Shown piece after piece: positions 1,413 through 9,591 of a stretch of DNA of 36,447 nt. Origin of the DNA: a virus. Under the pieces are notes generated by a model. It was not told the origin of the DNA. It searched no databases and was given only the letters and a program-made list of their open reading frames with translations. The translations under genes and the position numbers were made by a program. Within the stretch, counting starts at the first letter, position 1; the number at the start of each line of letters is the position of its first letter. The stretch spans positions 1 through 36,447 of IMG/VR virus record IMGVR_UViG_3300043772_000322; one strand, written 5' to 3'.

Positions 1413-2639
1413 TCACCGTGCCATCGGCATCATCACAGGGACGAGGCGAGGCTTCGCCTTCTCCTGCTTGCCAGCCCGGCGTGCGCCCTCGCAGGCATAG
1501 CGCAGGGCGTCGATGACGTGGTTTTCCTTGTCCTCCAGCACCGGCAAGATGCTGCCCGTGTCGCGGTCGGTCTTGTAGCTGTAGAGCGTCAGTTCATCGA
1601 TGGTGTGCTTGCAGCGCGGATGCACCACGATGTCAAAAGACTTCAGCCATTCGACGCCCTCCTCGACCGACTTCGGCCCCTTGACGGCGGGCATGATCTT
1701 CGGAAAGCCGTTCTTGCGCATGTGGCTGATGGTCTCGGGCCGCGCGCTGTCGGCCACCATCGGCCAGCGCTCAGCCTCGGGGATCGTCATAAACAGCGAA
1801 GGCGTGTCGACGATCTCGCAGCCCACCTGATAGGCTTCGTGGTCAATATATAGCTTCCGTCCTATAATGTGGCAGCGAATGCCAACGGTCGGGTCAGTGG
1901 CAAAGCCCCAGTCAGCGCCGAGGCGATGGACGGCATCAGGCGGTGCCTCGAAGTCCTCAATGGTCCAGTTCTTGAACACGCGGGTTTCGCTGTTGCGGAC
2001 ATACTCGCCTTTCCAGACGTGCAGATATTTGTCTGGATCGCGCCGCTTGTCGTATTCCATCTCGTCTTTGAGAACGTCAGGGAACCACGGGTTGTCGCTG
2101 TAGTTCACTTCGACGATCACGCTGTCGGGCGGCGGCGTTGGCCCGCGCAGCAAGCCCTCGATCGGGTCTGTGTCGAAGCGTGGGTTCCAACTGAACAGAA
2201 GCTGCGAGCCGGGCTTGCGGATGGTCGGGCGCAGGAGATCCAGCGAGAACTGGCTGATTGACTGGGCCTCCTCGACCCACGCAATGTCGAACCCCTCGAG
2301 CGACTTCACGCTGTCGGCGGTGTGGTTCTGCATGCCCTGGAAGATGATGACGCCGCCGTGCGGGCATTTGATCTCGGCCTGCTGCACTTGGAATAGATGA
2401 CCGACGCCCAATTCCTCGATCTTGTTTTCGATCAGCTTCTTGACCGACTGCTTCAGCGACTTCTGCACCTCGCGCACGCAGACCACGTCGGTCTTGCGCA
2501 TCACGCAACGCTCCACGATCCATTCCGCGAAGAAGGTTGACTTGCCAGATCCGCGCCCGCCGTATGCCCCGATGTAGCGGGCGCTCTCGCGTTGCAGGAT
2601 CGGCAGCGCCCAGCGAGGCGTGTGGATGTCTAGGTTCAC
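1413..2639 (-). CDS. Terminase large subunit (packaging ATPase/nuclease)
   Basis: This is the motor that pumps DNA into the prohead and cuts concatemers. In the 408 residues, the Walker A motif GGRGSGKS is near residue 28, Walker B reads DIAWVEEA, and SWNPRFDTDP is the motif III/coupling segment. The C-terminal RNase H-like nuclease shows LGADWGFATDPT, VADSARPET and HVIDALRYA, which supply the acidic metal ligands. The start codon is GTG at 2637-2639, with AGGTGG upstream. It lies 9 bp after the 631-residue gene and before portal. It is shorter than P22 gp2 (about 499) but complete for both domains. Confidence 0.95.
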   Translation of the reverse strand: MNLDIHTPRWALPILQRESARYIGAYGGRGSGKSTFFAEWIVERCVMRKTDVVCVREVQKSLKQSVKKLIENKIEELGVGHLFQVQQAEIKCPHGGVIIFQGMQNHTADSVKSLEGFDIAWVEEAQSISQFSLDLLRPTIRKPGSQLLFSWNPRFDTDPIEGLLRGPTPPPDSVIVEVNYSDNPWFPDVLKDEMEYDKRRDPDKYLHVWKGEYVRNSETRVFKNWTIEDFEAPPDAVHRLGADWGFATDPTVGIRCHIIGRKLYIDHEAYQVGCEIVDTPSLFMTIPEAERWPMVADSARPETISHMRKNGFPKIMPAVKGPKSVEEGVEWLKSFDIVVHPRCKHTIDELTLYSYKTDRDTGSILPVLEDKENHVIDALRYACEGARRAGKQEKAKPRLVPVMMPMAR

Positions 2640-4547: not shown

Positions 4548-4931
4548 TTAGCCCTTCGGATCGATGATGGTTCGCTTGATTTCGACCGGGATGGCGCCGC
4601 CGTCTGGGCCGGAGTGTTCGCTCTTCAGCGTGTCGTTCCAATCGGCGCGAAATCGGTTCTTCATCTGGAAAATATAGCTTGTAGCGTTGAAGCCATCAAC
4701 GCCGCCGAAGGTGGCGATGCGGCCCTGATCTTCCCACCAGGCTTGGGATTTCCGCAAACCTTCTTTTACGGCGTCGGAAAATTCCGGGTGGATCTTCATC
4801 CACTCGTTCAGCGTTTCGCGGTTGATGTCGAGTTCGTCAGCCATGCCAACAAGTGTTTTGCCGTCACGCCCGCACTGGATCACTGTCTCGCACATGGCTG
4901 GATCGTACTTTGTCGGCCTGCCTGCTGGCAT
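4548..4931 (-). CDS. Terminase small subunit
   Basis: This is a 127-residue DNA-recognition subunit of the packaging machine. It opens MPAGRPTKYDPAMCETVIQC, followed by a helix-turn-helix (TLVGMADELDINRETLNEW) and KIHPEFSDAVKEGL, which is typical of phage small terminases. A C-terminal region (FQMKNRFRADWND) probably mediates assembly. A strong GAGGTGAG ribosome binding site precedes ATG 4929-4931, which decides the start against a much longer open frame. It is followed after 3 bp by the 631-residue gene. Confidence 0.9.
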   Translation of the reverse strand: MPAGRPTKYDPAMCETVIQCGRDGKTLVGMADELDINRETLNEWMKIHPEFSDAVKEGLRKSQAWWEDQGRIATFGGVDGFNATSYIFQMKNRFRADWNDTLKSEHSGPDGGAIPVEIKRTIIDPKG

Positions 4932-4978
4932 ATTGCTCACCTCATCTCGGGCGATGCTGCCCGGTCGCTGGGCGCATT

Positions 4979-5200
4979 CTAACGCTTCACCGCCAAATAT
5001 GCAAACTGTCCGACGCCCTCGCGCTTGCAGAACAGGAAGACCAGCTTGTCGGTCTCGGCTCTGGCAGCCGCGTGGCGATGCAGGCCGCCGCAGGTCTGGC
5101 CGACATGGTAGACGATGCGGTCGCCCTTCTGCGCCTCGGCCAGCGCGCGGTAGAAGGCGTCCTTGCTGGTGTCGCCGGTGATATAAATCGTGCTGCTCAT
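4979..5200 (-). CDS. Small conserved-looking hypothetical protein (73 aa)
   Basis: The function is unknown. The protein is compact, with a motif-like GQTCGGLHRHAAARA segment and a KLVFLFCKREGVGQFAYLAV C-terminus. The His/Cys cluster could bind metal, but there is no recognised fold. GGAGG lies 7 nt before the ATG, and the start overlaps the stop of the preceding 196-residue gene by 4 bp. It sits directly upstream of the small terminase gene, so a packaging-linked role is possible but unproven. Confidence 0.75.
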   Translation of the reverse strand: MSSTIYITGDTSKDAFYRALAEAQKGDRIVYHVGQTCGGLHRHAAARAETDKLVFLFCKREGVGQFAYLAVKR

Positions 5201-5787
5201 TCCAAGTCCTCCAAGAAATCAAAATCATCTTCCAGATCCTGCGGCGCGCGTCTGATCGCCTTCACCTCGGCGCCGGGGAACGCCAGCTTCACCGCGTTCA
5301 CCAGCCCGTTGCGGTGTTCGTGCAGGGCGACAGCCACCTCGCGCATCGTGTGGATCGCGATGCCAGGCCGCTTGGCGTAGGCGGCAGGCCATTCACGTCC
5401 ATCCTCGATGATGCCGTAGACCTGGCCCTCGTATTCGTGTTCCCAGATGTCAGGATCGGAAACGGGCCGACCGAGGCTGACGGCTTCGGCGTCCATTGCG
5501 GTCAGCCCGCGCAGACAGATCTCGACCCAGAACTTTACCTTGTCGGGATCTTGCGCATCAATGGCGCCGTTCAGGCCAGCCATCGCCTTGCCCCACTTCG
5601 CGGCGCTCTCGGTCGAGACGAGTTCGGGCAGGCGGTCCACGCCCCATCGTTTGTCCATCTCTCTGACAGCCGCGTCGAAGGGTGCCAGCGCGAGGTCCGC
5701 TTTGATCTCATTGGCCGTCGCTCCTTTGTGCAGGATGCGGTCATCTTTTTTCTGGCGTGTTGGTCTCTTGGCCATTGTTGTCGTCAT
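5197..5787 (-). CDS. Hypothetical protein upstream of the terminase genes (196 aa)
   Basis: Not recognised. The N-terminus is basic (MTTTMAKRPTRQKKDDR), the middle is helical (around VSTESAAKWGKAMAGLNGAI), and the tail is acidic (EDDFDFLEDLE). The start is taken at ATG 5785-5787, with AGGA about 8 nt upstream; ATG 5773-5775 (MAKRPT) is an alternative. It is the first gene after the GGTGAGG repeat cluster. A basic head with an acidic tail could suit a DNA- or protein-binding packaging accessory, but nothing in the sequence proves it. Confidence 0.75.
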   Translation of the reverse strand: MTTTMAKRPTRQKKDDRILHKGATANEIKADLALAPFDAAVREMDKRWGVDRLPELVSTESAAKWGKAMAGLNGAIDAQDPDKVKFWVEICLRGLTAMDAEAVSLGRPVSDPDIWEHEYEGQVYGIIEDGREWPAAYAKRPGIAIHTMREVAVALHEHRNGLVNAVKLAFPGAEVKAIRRAPQDLEDDFDFLEDLE

Positions 5788-5797
5788 CTCTGGTTTC

Positions 5798-5935
5798 CTC
5801 ACTCTCACCTCACCTCACATAACCAACACCTTCACCTCCTCACCCCTCACCCCCTTTAGGGGGTGGGGTGAGGAGGAAGGGTGTTTTACCTCACCTTTCC
5901 TCACCTTTCCTCACCTGTGAGGCTCTAGGTGAGGT
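5798..5935. repeat. CCTCACC/GGTGAGG repeat cluster with hairpin
   Basis: About 140 bp hold CCTCACC at about 5809, 5838, 5845, 5889, 5899 and 5909, and the inverse GGTGAGG at 5867 and 5928. Three copies are spaced exactly 10 bp apart (5889, 5899, 5909; unit CCTCACCTTT). Two inverted repeats lie within it. One is a near-perfect 19-21 bp stem (5835-5855 with 5858-5876) with only 2 bp between the arms. The other is an 8 bp stem (CCTCACCT 5909-5916 with AGGTGAGG 5927-5934). No coding frame was found. It lies before the packaging genes and could be a packaging-recognition (pac), replication-origin or regulatory site. Confidence 0.75.
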
Positions 5936-5945
5936 TGCATATTTA

Positions 5946-6128
5946 TCACAGTTTGTCCCATGCAGACTTGTGCTTTCCGCCCTGCCAGCCGTGGCCAGAT
6001 GACGTGTCGCTCATGCGCACGGTGGCCCAGCCATGCTCGTTCCACTCGGTCAGGCGCTCATAGGTGGCGACGCCGGGGTGACCCCAGCTATCGCGCGTTT
6101 CGGTGGTTTTGGTTTCGATGACGGTCAT
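5946..6128 (-). CDS. Small hypothetical protein (60 aa)
   Basis: Not recognised. It is a short soluble protein rich in Thr, Gly, Trp and His (RDSWGHPGVATYERLTEWNE, then SSGHGWQGGKHKSAW). AAGGAG lies 6 nt before the ATG. It is the second gene behind the promoter-like module at 6379-6448 and lies just before the repeat cluster. Confidence 0.7.
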   Translation of the reverse strand: MTVIETKTTETRDSWGHPGVATYERLTEWNEHGWATVRMSDTSSGHGWQGGKHKSAWDKL

Positions 6129-6154
6129 GGTGGTCTCCTTGTTGGTGTTCTGGG

Positions 6155-6370
6155 TTATGCGGCGCGGCGTGCTTCGATGCGTGCGTCCATTGCGAGCATG
6201 TCGCGCTTGTGGCGCATGATGCGGCGGCCCAGTTCCAATGCCTCGCAGTCAACGATGCGACCGCAGGAGCGGTATTCTACCATGTAGGTGCCGGTATAGT
6301 AGTTGCGGGTGATTGAGATCAGGTCAGTGGCGAGGAAGTCGCGGATCAGTTTTTCGAGGCCGGTGGTCAT
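6155..6370 (-). CDS. Small hypothetical protein (71 aa), first gene after the duplicated promoter
   Basis: Not recognised. The sequence is MTTGLEKLIRDFLATDLISI, a Tyr-rich TRNYYTGTYMVEYRSCGR, then a basic helical tail. ATG 6368-6370 is preferred over ATG 6377-6379. The AAGG ribosome binding site abuts the upstream ATG, but is 9 nt from the chosen one, the same geometry as the sister leader at 11477. Confidence 0.7.
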   Translation of the reverse strand: MTTGLEKLIRDFLATDLISITRNYYTGTYMVEYRSCGRIVDCEALELGRRIMRHKRDMLAMDARIEARRAA

Positions 6371-6378
6371 CTTGTTCA

Positions 6379-6448
6379 TCCTTGTTTGCTAGTTCGTAGG
6401 ACCACCATACAGCCTGCTGCGCGCGATGCAACAATAAAATTGACGCAT
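6379..6448 (-). promoter_or_regulatory. Promoter/leader module, copy B (leftward)
   Basis: Read on the minus strand, this region has ATGCGTCAA (6440-6448), a T-rich stretch, a possible -35 TTGTTG, a 17 bp spacer and the -10-like TGTATG. A 28-base leader at 6379-6406 follows, identical to 11440-11467 (+). Including the flanking AGGCTGTA, 36 of 37 bases match. The leader ends in the AAGGA ribosome binding site. Such conservation between otherwise unrelated genes implies a shared promoter or mRNA leader and shared control by the Cro-like protein. The transcription start itself is not visible. Confidence 0.55.
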
Positions 6449-6463
6449 GAGCAATTATTTTTA

Positions 6464-8782
6464 TCACACTTCGTCATGGCTGATCCACTCTCCGACCACC
6501 ACGACGGCCACCTCACGGGCCTGCCTCGGATCTGTGATCCGCTCGACGGCCAGCACGTTTGTCTTGATCCAGGTCTTGATGATCGCCGCCACTTTGGCCT
6601 TGCCTTTCTTCTCGGTGATGTCGATGCCGAGCATGTCTGCTATTGGGACGCCCACCCATTTTTTAGACTGTTGGCTTTCACGCAGCGGCTCGTCGTTTGT
6701 GTGGGCGTCTGCAACGATCCTCTGTGCCGCCTTGGCATCTTTGGCGCTGATGCCGTCGAATGCGTCTGGCAGCGTGTACGGCACGCAGACACCGATCCAT
6801 TCGCCGTTGTCGATCTTGACGCCTTCCATCTTGCGGTAGACAGCGGCTGCTGCTGGCGGGGCCAGGTTGGCCTTGCCGTCGTCCACGCGCATGATGCTGC
6901 GGGCCTCGTTCTCGTCGATGCCCAGCTTGGCTGCATCGTCGGCTGACATGCGGTTGACCACGCGCGCAGCACGGGCCGCCCCGATCAGGCTGCCTGCGCC
7001 ACGCACGCTGTCGATCGAGGCGTCTTCCCCGTTGCCTTTGCGGATGTGATGGACCAGCCCGATAGCGCACTTTGTCTCGTCAGCCACGCGCCTTATTTCC
7101 GCCACAATGGCGTTAATGCCGACGTTGTCGTTTTCGCTGCTAAGACTATGAGCCGCGACGAAGGGATCGATGAAGACGCAACCGATCTGCTTTTCGGGGA
7201 TCTTGGCGCACAGGTATTCGACCAGCTTGGTATTGGGCAGCACGCCGTCGCGGGTCTGGATGCCGAACTTGAGGCTGAAGTCCCGGCCCGCGTTGACGAA
7301 CAGGCGGCCCTCGACCTCGGCGGGCTTGATCCCGTAATGCCGCATCGCGGCGAGAACCCGGCGCTGGATCTCAGACAGCGGATCTTCCAGATTGACCAGC
7401 CAGACGTTTGTGCGCTCTTTCACCTCCTCGCCCAGCAGCGGCCTGCCCGTCACGATGGCCAGCGCCTCCACGATCTGGAGGCTGGTTTTGCCGATGCCGC
7501 CTGCCGATGCCAGCACGCTGACGAAGGATCGCAGATAATGGTGGGCATAGATCCAGCGGCGCGGCTCGATGCTGGCCTCGTCGAACATATCGTAGAGCGT
7601 GGGCCAATCCGGGGCCGCCTCGGGGGCGTCTGGGGTGTCGAAGCTGTCAAGGTCTATGTCGTCGGCCTGTGCGCTGGCTGGTGCCTCCTGCGCGGCCTGC
7701 GGGGCCACATAGTCGAAATCATCCATGCCGTTCTCGGGCAGTTCGATCTCGGCCTTGGCCGGGCTGATCTCCAAGCCATAGGCGCGCACGGCTTTGTCGA
7801 AATCGCCCTGATGCTCATAATGCACAAAAAGGTCCCATGCATCGCCCCAGCAGTATGAACTCTCACCAAGTGACTTAGGCCTGCCCACACCAGCGGCGGC
7901 ATCCGATCCTGACAGGCTTACCCAATGCGATAAGAAGTTCTGCGTGGCGAAGCTGGGGGACGTTTGATACCGAGAACGGTAATGCTGGGACGATCCGCGC
8001 CGCTCGTATTGGTAGCGGGCGAACAGATCCTCGATGGTGTGGTCTGCGTTGAAGGCATCGACCGGGCTGACCTGATCAGGGAACTTCTGCCGACGCTCGG
8101 CACGCTGGCGCTCACGCTCGGCACGCGCCCGGTCGGCCTGCTCGGCGGCGAGGCGGTACTGTTCCAGCCTCCTGTCAATTTCTTGACGGATGGCGCTGTC
8201 GGCATCCAGACGCAGCGTGCCGGCGCGGATGATGCGGTGCTGGTAGAAGATCGGGGTGAGATCGGGGTTGCGTTTGGCCAGCGGCACGTTGGGCAGATAG
8301 ATCGGCTGCCCGCAGCGTGCCAGCGCGCCGTCTGGGTGTATGCCATTGGCATGCAGCAGGTCGAACAGGGCGGTCTGGGCAAGCTCATAGTCAGCGCCTG
8401 ACAGCACGCCCGACAAGGGCAGCAGGACGCGCCACTTGCGGTTCTCTGGAGTTGCGCCTGATGATGAGTAGGCAAGCAGGCTGACAGGCCCGCAGACGGC
8501 CTCCACGGCGGCCAGCACGTCATCTAGGCTGGGGTTGCCTCGGTCGATGTCGAGGGCGAGCATACGGAAGGCGCCACGCTCGCGCTGGGCTTCGTGGGAT
8601 CTGCCGTCGTGTTCACGGTAAGTTGAGGGAATGAAAAAGTCTGCGTCGATCTTTTCTTTCGCTTGGGGCGTCGAGACCATGCGGGCGATGTCGGCCCAAG
8701 AGATGCCCGGATAGACTTGGCCTGGCTTGTCGATGAGCGTGTGAAAAGAGCCTGGGGCTGTTAGGAAGCGGATATCAGACAT
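6464..8782 (-). CDS. Primase-helicase (PrimPol-like N-terminus, RepA/AAA_25-type helicase)
   Basis: This is probably the phage replicative helicase with a primase-like domain. Residues about 1-190 hold MLALDIDRGNPS (DxD-type metal motif) and YSSSGATPENRKWRVLLPLS, as in archaeo-eukaryotic primase-type phage proteins. A charged linker (RARAERERQRAERRQKF) follows. The RecA-like domain has Walker A ASAGGIGKTS, Walker B GCVFIDPF, GLVHHIRKG and the SVRGAGSLIGAARAARVV segment typical of RepA-like hexameric helicases. ATG 8780-8782 has a weak GGTGG before it; an in-frame GTG at 8806 would add 8 residues. It lies downstream of the ssDNA-binding protein gene. Confidence 0.88.
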   Translation of the reverse strand: MSDIRFLTAPGSFHTLIDKPGQVYPGISWADIARMVSTPQAKEKIDADFFIPSTYREHDGRSHEAQRERGAFRMLALDIDRGNPSLDDVLAAVEAVCGPVSLLAYSSSGATPENRKWRVLLPLSGVLSGADYELAQTALFDLLHANGIHPDGALARCGQPIYLPNVPLAKRNPDLTPIFYQHRIIRAGTLRLDADSAIRQEIDRRLEQYRLAAEQADRARAERERQRAERRQKFPDQVSPVDAFNADHTIEDLFARYQYERRGSSQHYRSRYQTSPSFATQNFLSHWVSLSGSDAAAGVGRPKSLGESSYCWGDAWDLFVHYEHQGDFDKAVRAYGLEISPAKAEIELPENGMDDFDYVAPQAAQEAPASAQADDIDLDSFDTPDAPEAAPDWPTLYDMFDEASIEPRRWIYAHHYLRSFVSVLASAGGIGKTSLQIVEALAIVTGRPLLGEEVKERTNVWLVNLEDPLSEIQRRVLAAMRHYGIKPAEVEGRLFVNAGRDFSLKFGIQTRDGVLPNTKLVEYLCAKIPEKQIGCVFIDPFVAAHSLSSENDNVGINAIVAEIRRVADETKCAIGLVHHIRKGNGEDASIDSVRGAGSLIGAARAARVVNRMSADDAAKLGIDENEARSIMRVDDGKANLAPPAAAAVYRKMEGVKIDNGEWIGVCVPYTLPDAFDGISAKDAKAAQRIVADAHTNDEPLRESQQSKKWVGVPIADMLGIDITEKKGKAKVAAIIKTWIKTNVLAVERITDPRQAREVAVVVVGEWISHDEV

Positions 8783-8799
8783 TGTGGCCACCGCGACAC

Positions 8800-8828
8800 T
8801 TGCCACCAGATATAGACTGCATTAAAGT
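8800..8828 (+). promoter_or_regulatory. Candidate promoter for the + strand small RNA
   Basis: TTGCCA (8800-8805, one change from TTGACA) is separated by 17 bp from TAAAGT (8823-8828, four of six to TATAAT). Initiation would be near 8835, giving a transcript of about 100 nt that ends at the terminator at 8897-8935. It points opposite to both flanking genes. Confidence 0.45.
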
Positions 8829-8834
8829 ATTCCT

Positions 8835-8935
8835 TGTGTTGGGTTGCTCTCACACATCTGGAACCTGCTCCTCCCTCGGTTCCGCCTGCCTTAACTGAAC
8901 CCCGGCGCGTTGGTCTCACGCCGGGGTTCTTTTTA
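8835..8935 (+). ncRNA. Candidate small RNA with CCUCC-rich loop (cuckoo/CcsR-like)
   Basis: This intergenic stretch is read opposite to both neighbouring genes. It forms a first hairpin, GGAACC 8860-8865 with GGTTCC 8878-8883. Its 12-base loop TGCTCCTCCCTC is complementary to Shine-Dalgarno sequences. A perfect 11 bp terminator hairpin follows. A promoter-like -35/-10 pair lies at the right distance upstream. A C-rich loop hairpin plus an intrinsic terminator is the build of the alphaproteobacterial cuckoo RNAs (CcsR of Rhodobacter). A competing reading is a minus-strand leader peptide: GGAGGAG at 8868-8874 and ATG at 8857, 11 codons. The terminator polarity favours the RNA. Confidence 0.5.
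8897..8935 (+). terminator. Intrinsic terminator, + strand polarity
   Basis: GAACCCCGGCG (8897-8907) pairs perfectly with CGCCGGGGTTC (8919-8929) over 11 bp across an 11-base loop, and TTTTT follows on the + strand. On the minus strand the hairpin is followed by GTTAAGG, with no U-run. The signal therefore ends a rightward transcript, although both flanking genes are leftward. Confidence 0.8.
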
Positions 8936-8937
8936 TA

Positions 8938-9591
8938 TCACCAGGGGATATCGTCCCCAAGTTCTTCCTTGATGCTCTGCCGCTTTTCTTCTTGCAAGGG
9001 CTGACGCGCCTGCTCAAACGGATCGGCCTTGCTTTCGACGGTATCAAAATCATCCATGCCGCCGTCACCATAGCGTGCCTCTGTGACCTGCACAGCGTCG
9101 AGCAGGAGGCTGATGCCGCCGTTCCCATCGGGATCAATGACGGCCACCGCCCATGCGCGCACGGTGCCTTTTGAGCCGCCCCAGAATGCCAGATCGGCCA
9201 GCGGCTGCTTCTGCCCGTCGATGACGGTGGGCGCCTTGTTGGGCGTGCCGTCTTTCTTCATGCCGTTGCGCTTGGCTGCGAACTGCACGATGCCGGTTTC
9301 ATTGCCGTGTTCGTCCTTCAGCTTCTTCATGCCGAAGATCGTTTTGAACTGAGGCATCTTGCTGTTGCGCGAGCGGCAGGCCTCGTAGTGGGCGCGCAGT
9401 TCTTCGTAAAGCGGCTTGGCCTGCTCTTTGGGCATGTCGAATGCCACGCTCCAGGCCGCGTTGGATGCGGTGGGCGCGCAGGGTTCGCTGGCCTGCTTCT
9501 GGGTGTTGAACCGATAGGTCTGGTTCAATTTCGGGTATTGCAGGGTCACGTTCTTGACGAGAACCTTGTGGAAGTCATCGTTGTTAGCCAT
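8938..9591 (-). CDS. Single-stranded DNA-binding protein (DUF2815/T7 gp2.5-like)
   Basis: The 217-residue product should coat single-stranded DNA during replication and recombination. The core has LVKNVTLQYPKLNQTYRF, a DMPKEQAKPLYEELRAHYE helix and a sheet-rich region (GTVRAWAVAVIDPDGNGGIS). It ends in an acidic tail finishing DDIPW, much like the DDIPF tip that bacterial SSB uses to recruit partners. GGAG lies about 6 nt before ATG 9589-9591. It sits between the exonuclease and helicase genes, as expected. Confidence 0.85.
   Translation of the reverse strand: MANNDDFHKVLVKNVTLQYPKLNQTYRFNTQKQASEPCAPTASNAAWSVAFDMPKEQAKPLYEELRAHYEACRSRNSKMPQFKTIFGMKKLKDEHGNETGIVQFAAKRNGMKKDGTPNKAPTVIDGQKQPLADLAFWGGSKGTVRAWAVAVIDPDGNGGISLLLDAVQVTEARYGDGGMDDFDTVESKADPFEQARQPLQEEKRQSIKEELGDDIPW

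Follow-up and report, generated by a model that had tools for sequence, protein, structure and literature searches.

A candidate small RNA with an anti-Shine-Dalgarno loop opposite the leader of a phage primase-helicase gene

Does the short gap between two leftward replication genes of this virus encode an RNA on the opposite strand and, if so, would that RNA act on the genes that it lies across or on other mRNAs? To our knowledge, small RNAs of phages have rarely been described outside the enterobacterial models. A preliminary description of the window (the whole stretch of 36,447 bases that was analysed) had proposed a phage-borne RNA resembling the cuckoo RNAs and CcsR, displaying an anti-Shine-Dalgarno (aSD) loop and perhaps captured from a host.

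The locus and its predicted RNA

The promoter, the hairpin and the terminator named in that description are all present where it placed them, on the plus strand. The putative σ70-type promoter (8800-8828) consists of TTGCCA at 8800-8805 and TAAAGT at 8823-8828, separated by a spacer of 17 nt. A promoter scan over 1.7 kb found one site against 0.3 expected, which is weak when taken alone, and the assignment also draws on conservation. The promoter would give rise to a small antisense RNA of about 100 nt (8835-8935), with a 5' end placed 7 nt past the -10 element, as inferred from the promoter, and a 3' end set at the T-run. Folding and a covariance model both point to such an RNA: 8835-8936 has a folding energy of -39.0 kcal/mol versus -26.9 ± 3.2 for shuffled sequences (z = -3.8), and covariance model R1 gives 75.8 bits on the plus strand and 23.9 on the minus strand, with the window itself being part of the training alignment.

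The predicted fold begins with a 5' hairpin (8835-8856). This is followed by the aSD hairpin (8860-8883), seen by direct reading, folding and covariation, in which a 6-bp stem (GGAACC at 8860-8865 and GGTTCC at 8878-8883) encloses a 12-nt loop, TGCTCCTCCCTC, that contains CTCCTCCC at 8868-8875. The intrinsic terminator (8897-8934) has a perfect 11-bp stem (8897-8907 and 8919-8929) followed by TTTTT at 8930-8934. It is the sole strong intrinsic terminator of the window, either strand counted: a custom scan of both strands over the 36,447 bases found no second stem of at least 8 bp with a comparable T-run. The terminator loop (8908-8918, plus strand) reads YUGGUC on the RNA in the window's lineage, where its stem covaries. 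It resembles the UUGG loops known from antisense RNAs of plasmids, and in other lineages the aSD motif is found there.

CTCCTCCC occurs a single time in the window. The exact complement of the loop, GAGGGAGGAGCA, is found nowhere else in the phage and is thus a single copy in cis, and no second near-perfect target for the loop was found in the phage. Apart from this stem read on its reverse strand, model R1 detected no further copy in the phage.

On the minus strand, the gene upstream of the leader encodes a gp2.5-like ssDNA-binding protein (8938-9591; PHROG 112, 2.4e-15) that also matches a Roseobacter phage ssDNA-binding protein. Downstream is the presumed cis target, a RepA-like primase-helicase (6464-8782), identified by Pfam (AAA_25, 3.6e-35), by PHROG (DNA polymerase/primase) and by 37% identity to a Roseobacter phage helicase/primase. 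Its start is most likely the ATG at 8782 rather than the GTG at 8806. The gap between the leftward genes is therefore about 155 nt long in place of 131 bp, and two short leader frames lie inside it. The first, the 11-codon frame from 8857 noticed earlier (MCESNPTQGIL, 8822-8857), is real and stands behind a Shine-Dalgarno sequence, GGAGGAG (8868-8874), which is the exact complement of the aSD loop. Its peptide is not conserved, and other lineages have a different frame here or no separate one. The second (8775-8822) has 15 codons, MQSISGGKCRGGHNV, and a stop codon that overlaps the primase start (ATGTCTGA). The middle of this second peptide varies freely among relatives.

Elsewhere in the window, the terminase large subunit (1413-2639, minus strand) is 69% identical to that of Xanthomonas phage PBR31. 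With replication genes nearest those of Roseobacter phages and a terminase nearest that of PBR31, the genome is a mosaic.

Conservation among related phages

The comparison set comprised about 100 related viral contigs from uncultured phages. A search with the ssDNA-binding protein yielded 80 related viral contigs, and more came from alignment scans, other queries and DNA patterns; the relatives were found through the neighbouring gene or the motif itself, and the frequencies are valid for this clade alone. A DNA search of a phage collection with a 4.1 kb query gave no match. On the gene strand, nearly all relatives have, 3' of the ssDNA-binding gene, an A-tract, a GC-rich hairpin, a second hairpin, a short leader and the primase-helicase. 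The loop of the second hairpin reads GGAGGAG or GAGAGGAG on that strand.

Fifty-three distinct gap sequences have a coupled start; their lineages are akin, and the counts are not counts of independent events. All 53 carry TTGNNN-17-TANNNN on the opposite strand at the same position, together with the aSD hairpin loop and a terminator that faces one way only, and the promoter pattern is present in further lineages as well. Each has a leader of 15, 17 or 13 codons that overlaps the primase start by ATGTCTGA or a close variant. In each, too, a start codon lies 6-13 nt past the Shine-Dalgarno sequence of the loop. A suspicion raised by eye, that sense start codons had been lost in the long-form lineages, was rejected, as NTG is retained there at 8-11 nt. 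The predicted RNA is 70-105 nt long across the family. A shorter form of 73-76 nt in other lineages lacks the 5' hairpin and would start where the aSD hairpin begins on its 5' side, or close to it. In L029 and L031 (about 660 bp past the ssDNA-binding gene) and in L228, an HNH-like frame (MEEVWKPVPSKPG...) has been inserted between that gene and the RNA unit, which is intact.

The promoter overlaps the leader, and its conservation was measured against that of the peptide. For 17 distinct 17-codon leader peptides, the summed antisense promoter score is 136 versus 3.3 ± 4.9 under random synonymous codon choice (none of 20,000 redraws reach it), a measure of constraint that gives no P value for independent events, since the sequences are related. 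A synonymous redraw yields a promoter in 2-4% of cases per leader. In these leaders, the -10 element covers codons 3-4 as ANN NTA and is formed through ATA, TTA or CTA, which this phage seldom uses (5%, 1% and 6% of the codons for the respective amino acid). The key promoter positions have a mean entropy of 0.40 bits, compared to 1.16 across the spacer and 1.47 at its third positions, which is as would be expected for a promoter, not for a peptide. L237, which has a leader of 13 codons with different indels, still has TTGCCA-17-TATAGT. These patterns indicate that the predicted promoter is conserved at the nucleotide level above the needs of the overlapping leader peptide. However, the TTG of the -35 element overlaps an AAGG that is probably the ribosome site of the primase, so part of the TTG conservation has a sense explanation.

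The terminator is directional. The stem behind the ssDNA-binding gene is followed by 4-7 T in the next eight bases on the opposite strand versus 0-3 on the gene strand (L069: 5), and in all distinct homologous stem-loops of the clade it is the antisense side that is richer in T. No relative retained the leader frame and lost the terminator hairpin and T-run. Many marine relatives that have no aSD hairpin (L158-L224) also have a hairpin after the ssDNA-binding gene with its T-run on the antisense side.

Both stems covary. In alignment A4, which places hairpin 1 of L069 and L154 out of register, 10 of the 19 base pairs have changed on both sides (4 of 6 in the aSD stem and 6 of 13 in the terminator). 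The covariation score is 0.322 versus 0.151 ± 0.019, a value reached by none of 500 shuffles, and the signal is destroyed when the partner strand is slid. Covariation alone picks no strand, because both strands would fold. An asymmetry between G-U and A-C wobbles was tried as a test of strand; it was mixed, pointed both ways and was dropped.

An opposite-strand RNA gene very probably exists. The candidate proposed initially, a plus-strand small RNA gene that combines an aSD hairpin with an intrinsic terminator, is supported as a conserved feature of related phages, and the covariation of loop, arms and terminator that the preliminary description had wished to see checked was observed.

Likeness to known RNA families

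No Rfam family matches the window at gathering threshold. Below threshold, the plus strand gives 21.6 bits for anti-hemB, 21.5 for ar14 and 19.4 for mmgR, and the minus strand 20.8 for ylbH. Anti-hemB (RF02837) has the best E-value for this stretch (0.0055), its 21.6 bits standing against a gathering score of 49.5. It shares with the phage RNA a CUCCUCCC loop that has a CCCCGGCG terminator behind it; unlike the phage RNA, it is a Burkholderia family found in a different context. For ar14/NfeR1 (RF02344), with a gathering score of 58.8 bits, the window reaches 21.5, L241 29.5, L246 27.2 and L154 30.7, where it is the top family. CcsR1 (RF02791; gathering score 65.3 bits) has no match in the window and reaches 24.1 in L246. 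In L246, ar14 and CcsR1 have the top two scores among 4227 Rfam families. The relatives' best scores are 24-31 bits; the gathering scores of the families compared are about 41-65.3.

RNAs of the cuckoo type have two to four hairpins, whose helices vary in sequence while a loop motif is conserved (PMC4504443). The phage RNA resembles ar14/NfeR1 and CcsR in being a short, predicted σ70-type RNA of two or three hairpins with variable stems, a CU-rich aSD loop and an intrinsic terminator. Its stems covary and its CU loop is conserved, with stem sequences that are partly alike. ar14 has three hairpins with CCUCCUCCC unpaired in each (PMC10746234). The window also has three hairpins, but with the motif CUCCUCCC in one loop, one base short of CCUCCUCCC, and falls outside that description of ar14; relatives have a CU-rich motif in two, which is a further likeness to the cuckoo RNAs. 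In alphaproteobacteria, CcsR and a DUF1127 protein are encoded together (PMC10253847). The phage RNA, by contrast, is phage-borne and antisense to a replication leader; its neighbours are the ssDNA-binding protein and the primase-helicase, and no DUF1127 neighbour was seen. The cuckoo/CcsR likeness thus holds for the architecture and for the second aSD loop in relatives, and membership of the Rfam families does not follow from scores of 21.5 bits in the window and 24-31 in relatives. Capture from a host found no support: no bacterial homologue was found, a genome pattern scan gave two chance matches, and a protein scan found no bacterial or prophage copies.

A different likeness is to the replication-control RNAs of plasmids. 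CopA of plasmid R1 and Inc/RNAI of the I-complex plasmids are antisense to the leader of a replication gene and pair over the site that governs a coupled leader peptide (PMC10724649). Judging by sequence and conservation, the phage RNA has its own promoter on the strand opposite such a leader, and the stop/start overlap that suggests coupling is present in all 53 distinct coupled-start gaps. Unlike CopA and RNAI, the phage RNA would have a primase-helicase as its target, its loop is predicted to pair with the Shine-Dalgarno sequence itself, and its terminator hairpin is separate. No sequence relation to CopA or RNAI was found.

Among phage RNAs, lambda OOP and P22 sar are short cis-antisense RNAs with their own promoter and terminator, OOP lying beside a replication gene. 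Unlike the RNA described here, they lack an aSD loop and have other targets (cII and ant). The c4 RNA of P1/P7 is a phage antisense RNA with loops complementary to a ribosome-binding-site region (PMC12197685); it controls an antirepressor and is made from the same strand as its target, whereas the RNA here has an opposite-strand promoter. A limited literature search, which covered PMC12197685 by keyword, found no phage aSD RNA of this kind.

Possible roles of the RNA

The most likely role, with about an even chance of being right, is cis-antisense control of the coupled translation of leader and primase-helicase, in the manner of CopA or c4. The comparison supplies the conserved promoter, the aSD hairpin, the one-way terminator and the coupled leader; the steps from there, from transcription and pairing to coupling and a change in primase-helicase output, are proposed as follows. 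The promoter inside the leader ORF would produce the plus-strand RNA of about 100 nt, which would end at its own terminator directly behind the ssDNA-binding gene. Such an RNA would be an exact complement of the leader in the primase-helicase mRNA, and its 12-nt loop would show the complement of the leader Shine-Dalgarno. The loops would pair first and a longer duplex would form next, closing the leader ORF to ribosomes; with the leader stop overlapping the primase-helicase start, a block of the leader would lower primase-helicase translation. Through its aSD loop, the RNA might secondarily affect other mRNAs.

The loop retains a Shine-Dalgarno sequence and start codon in 53 of 53 gaps and has a complement that is unique in the phage, so it appears to be under constraint on both strands, as would be expected of a cis-antisense pair. 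The preliminary description had itself cautioned that the loop complements the leader ribosome-binding site; with that site kept in all 53, mimicry is no more likely than a cis-antisense role. If true, phages of this group would control the translation of their replication genes the way plasmids do, and they would offer a test case of whether cuckoo-type aSD loops arise by convergence on ribosome sites or by descent from host RNAs.

The main rival, which is considered doubtful, is a trans-acting, cuckoo-like RNA whose aSD loop or loops would bind ribosome sites of host or phage mRNAs, its location opposite the primase leader being secondary. In L154, L241/L242 and L244-L268, the terminator loop of the opposite strand also contains UCCUCCC, UUUCUCCCC, UUCUCCCC or similar, with no start codon nearby on the gene strand; a motif there would be superfluous for action in cis. 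The tree of the ssDNA-binding protein requires at least two label changes on well-supported (starred) branches, and the rankings of ar14 and CcsR1 in L246 and of ar14 in L154 point the same way. Furthermore, in L058 (at 4752-7993) and likewise in L060, the primase-helicase has been replaced by a 218-aa frame without a Pfam match and an 861-aa frame, and the unit has outlasted it, with TTGCCA-17-TATACT, the aSD hairpin and the terminator retained and no start codon behind the Shine-Dalgarno; this too speaks against a cis role. Distant Roseobacter phages have CTCTTCCTCCCC beside an antisense terminator, mostly without a start codon at Shine-Dalgarno spacing. However, the covariance model reaches none of them at E ≤ 1, and they are taken as an analogy, not as members. 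In the window, the motif is confined to one of the three loops and is short of the first C of CCUCCUCCC, every Rfam score is below gathering, the phage offers no second near-perfect target, and a purely trans-acting RNA would not need the spaced sense start codon seen in 53 of 53 coupled-start gaps. It is also conceivable, and rather unlikely, that both modes are combined in a CopA-like cis-antisense RNA with cuckoo loop architecture that would additionally be active in trans at ribosome sites of host or phage, tying replication to global translation.

That same start codon 6-13 nt behind the loop Shine-Dalgarno, with its conserved coupled leader, speaks for a sense-strand element. Such an element, in which the hairpin would display or gate the Shine-Dalgarno of the coupled leader and the second hairpin would protect the upstream mRNA end without any antisense RNA, is improbable. 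Most stems pair on both strands, and two wobble events pair on the sense strand only; against this stand an antisense promoter kept more strictly than the peptide demands, a T-run confined to the antisense side, the Shine-Dalgarno-like terminator loops without any nearby start, and the hairpin, promoter and terminator that persist in L058/L060 without a start codon behind the Shine-Dalgarno. Very improbable is an origin or primer transcript, as was once proposed for lambda OOP, in which antisense transcription would open or prime an origin at the replication gene and the aSD loop would be incidental. It would leave the aSD loops in both hairpins unexplained, and the terminator stops the predicted RNA within about 100 nt; in its favour, the unit sits between the ssDNA-binding and primase-helicase genes and stays when another replication-type module displaces the latter.
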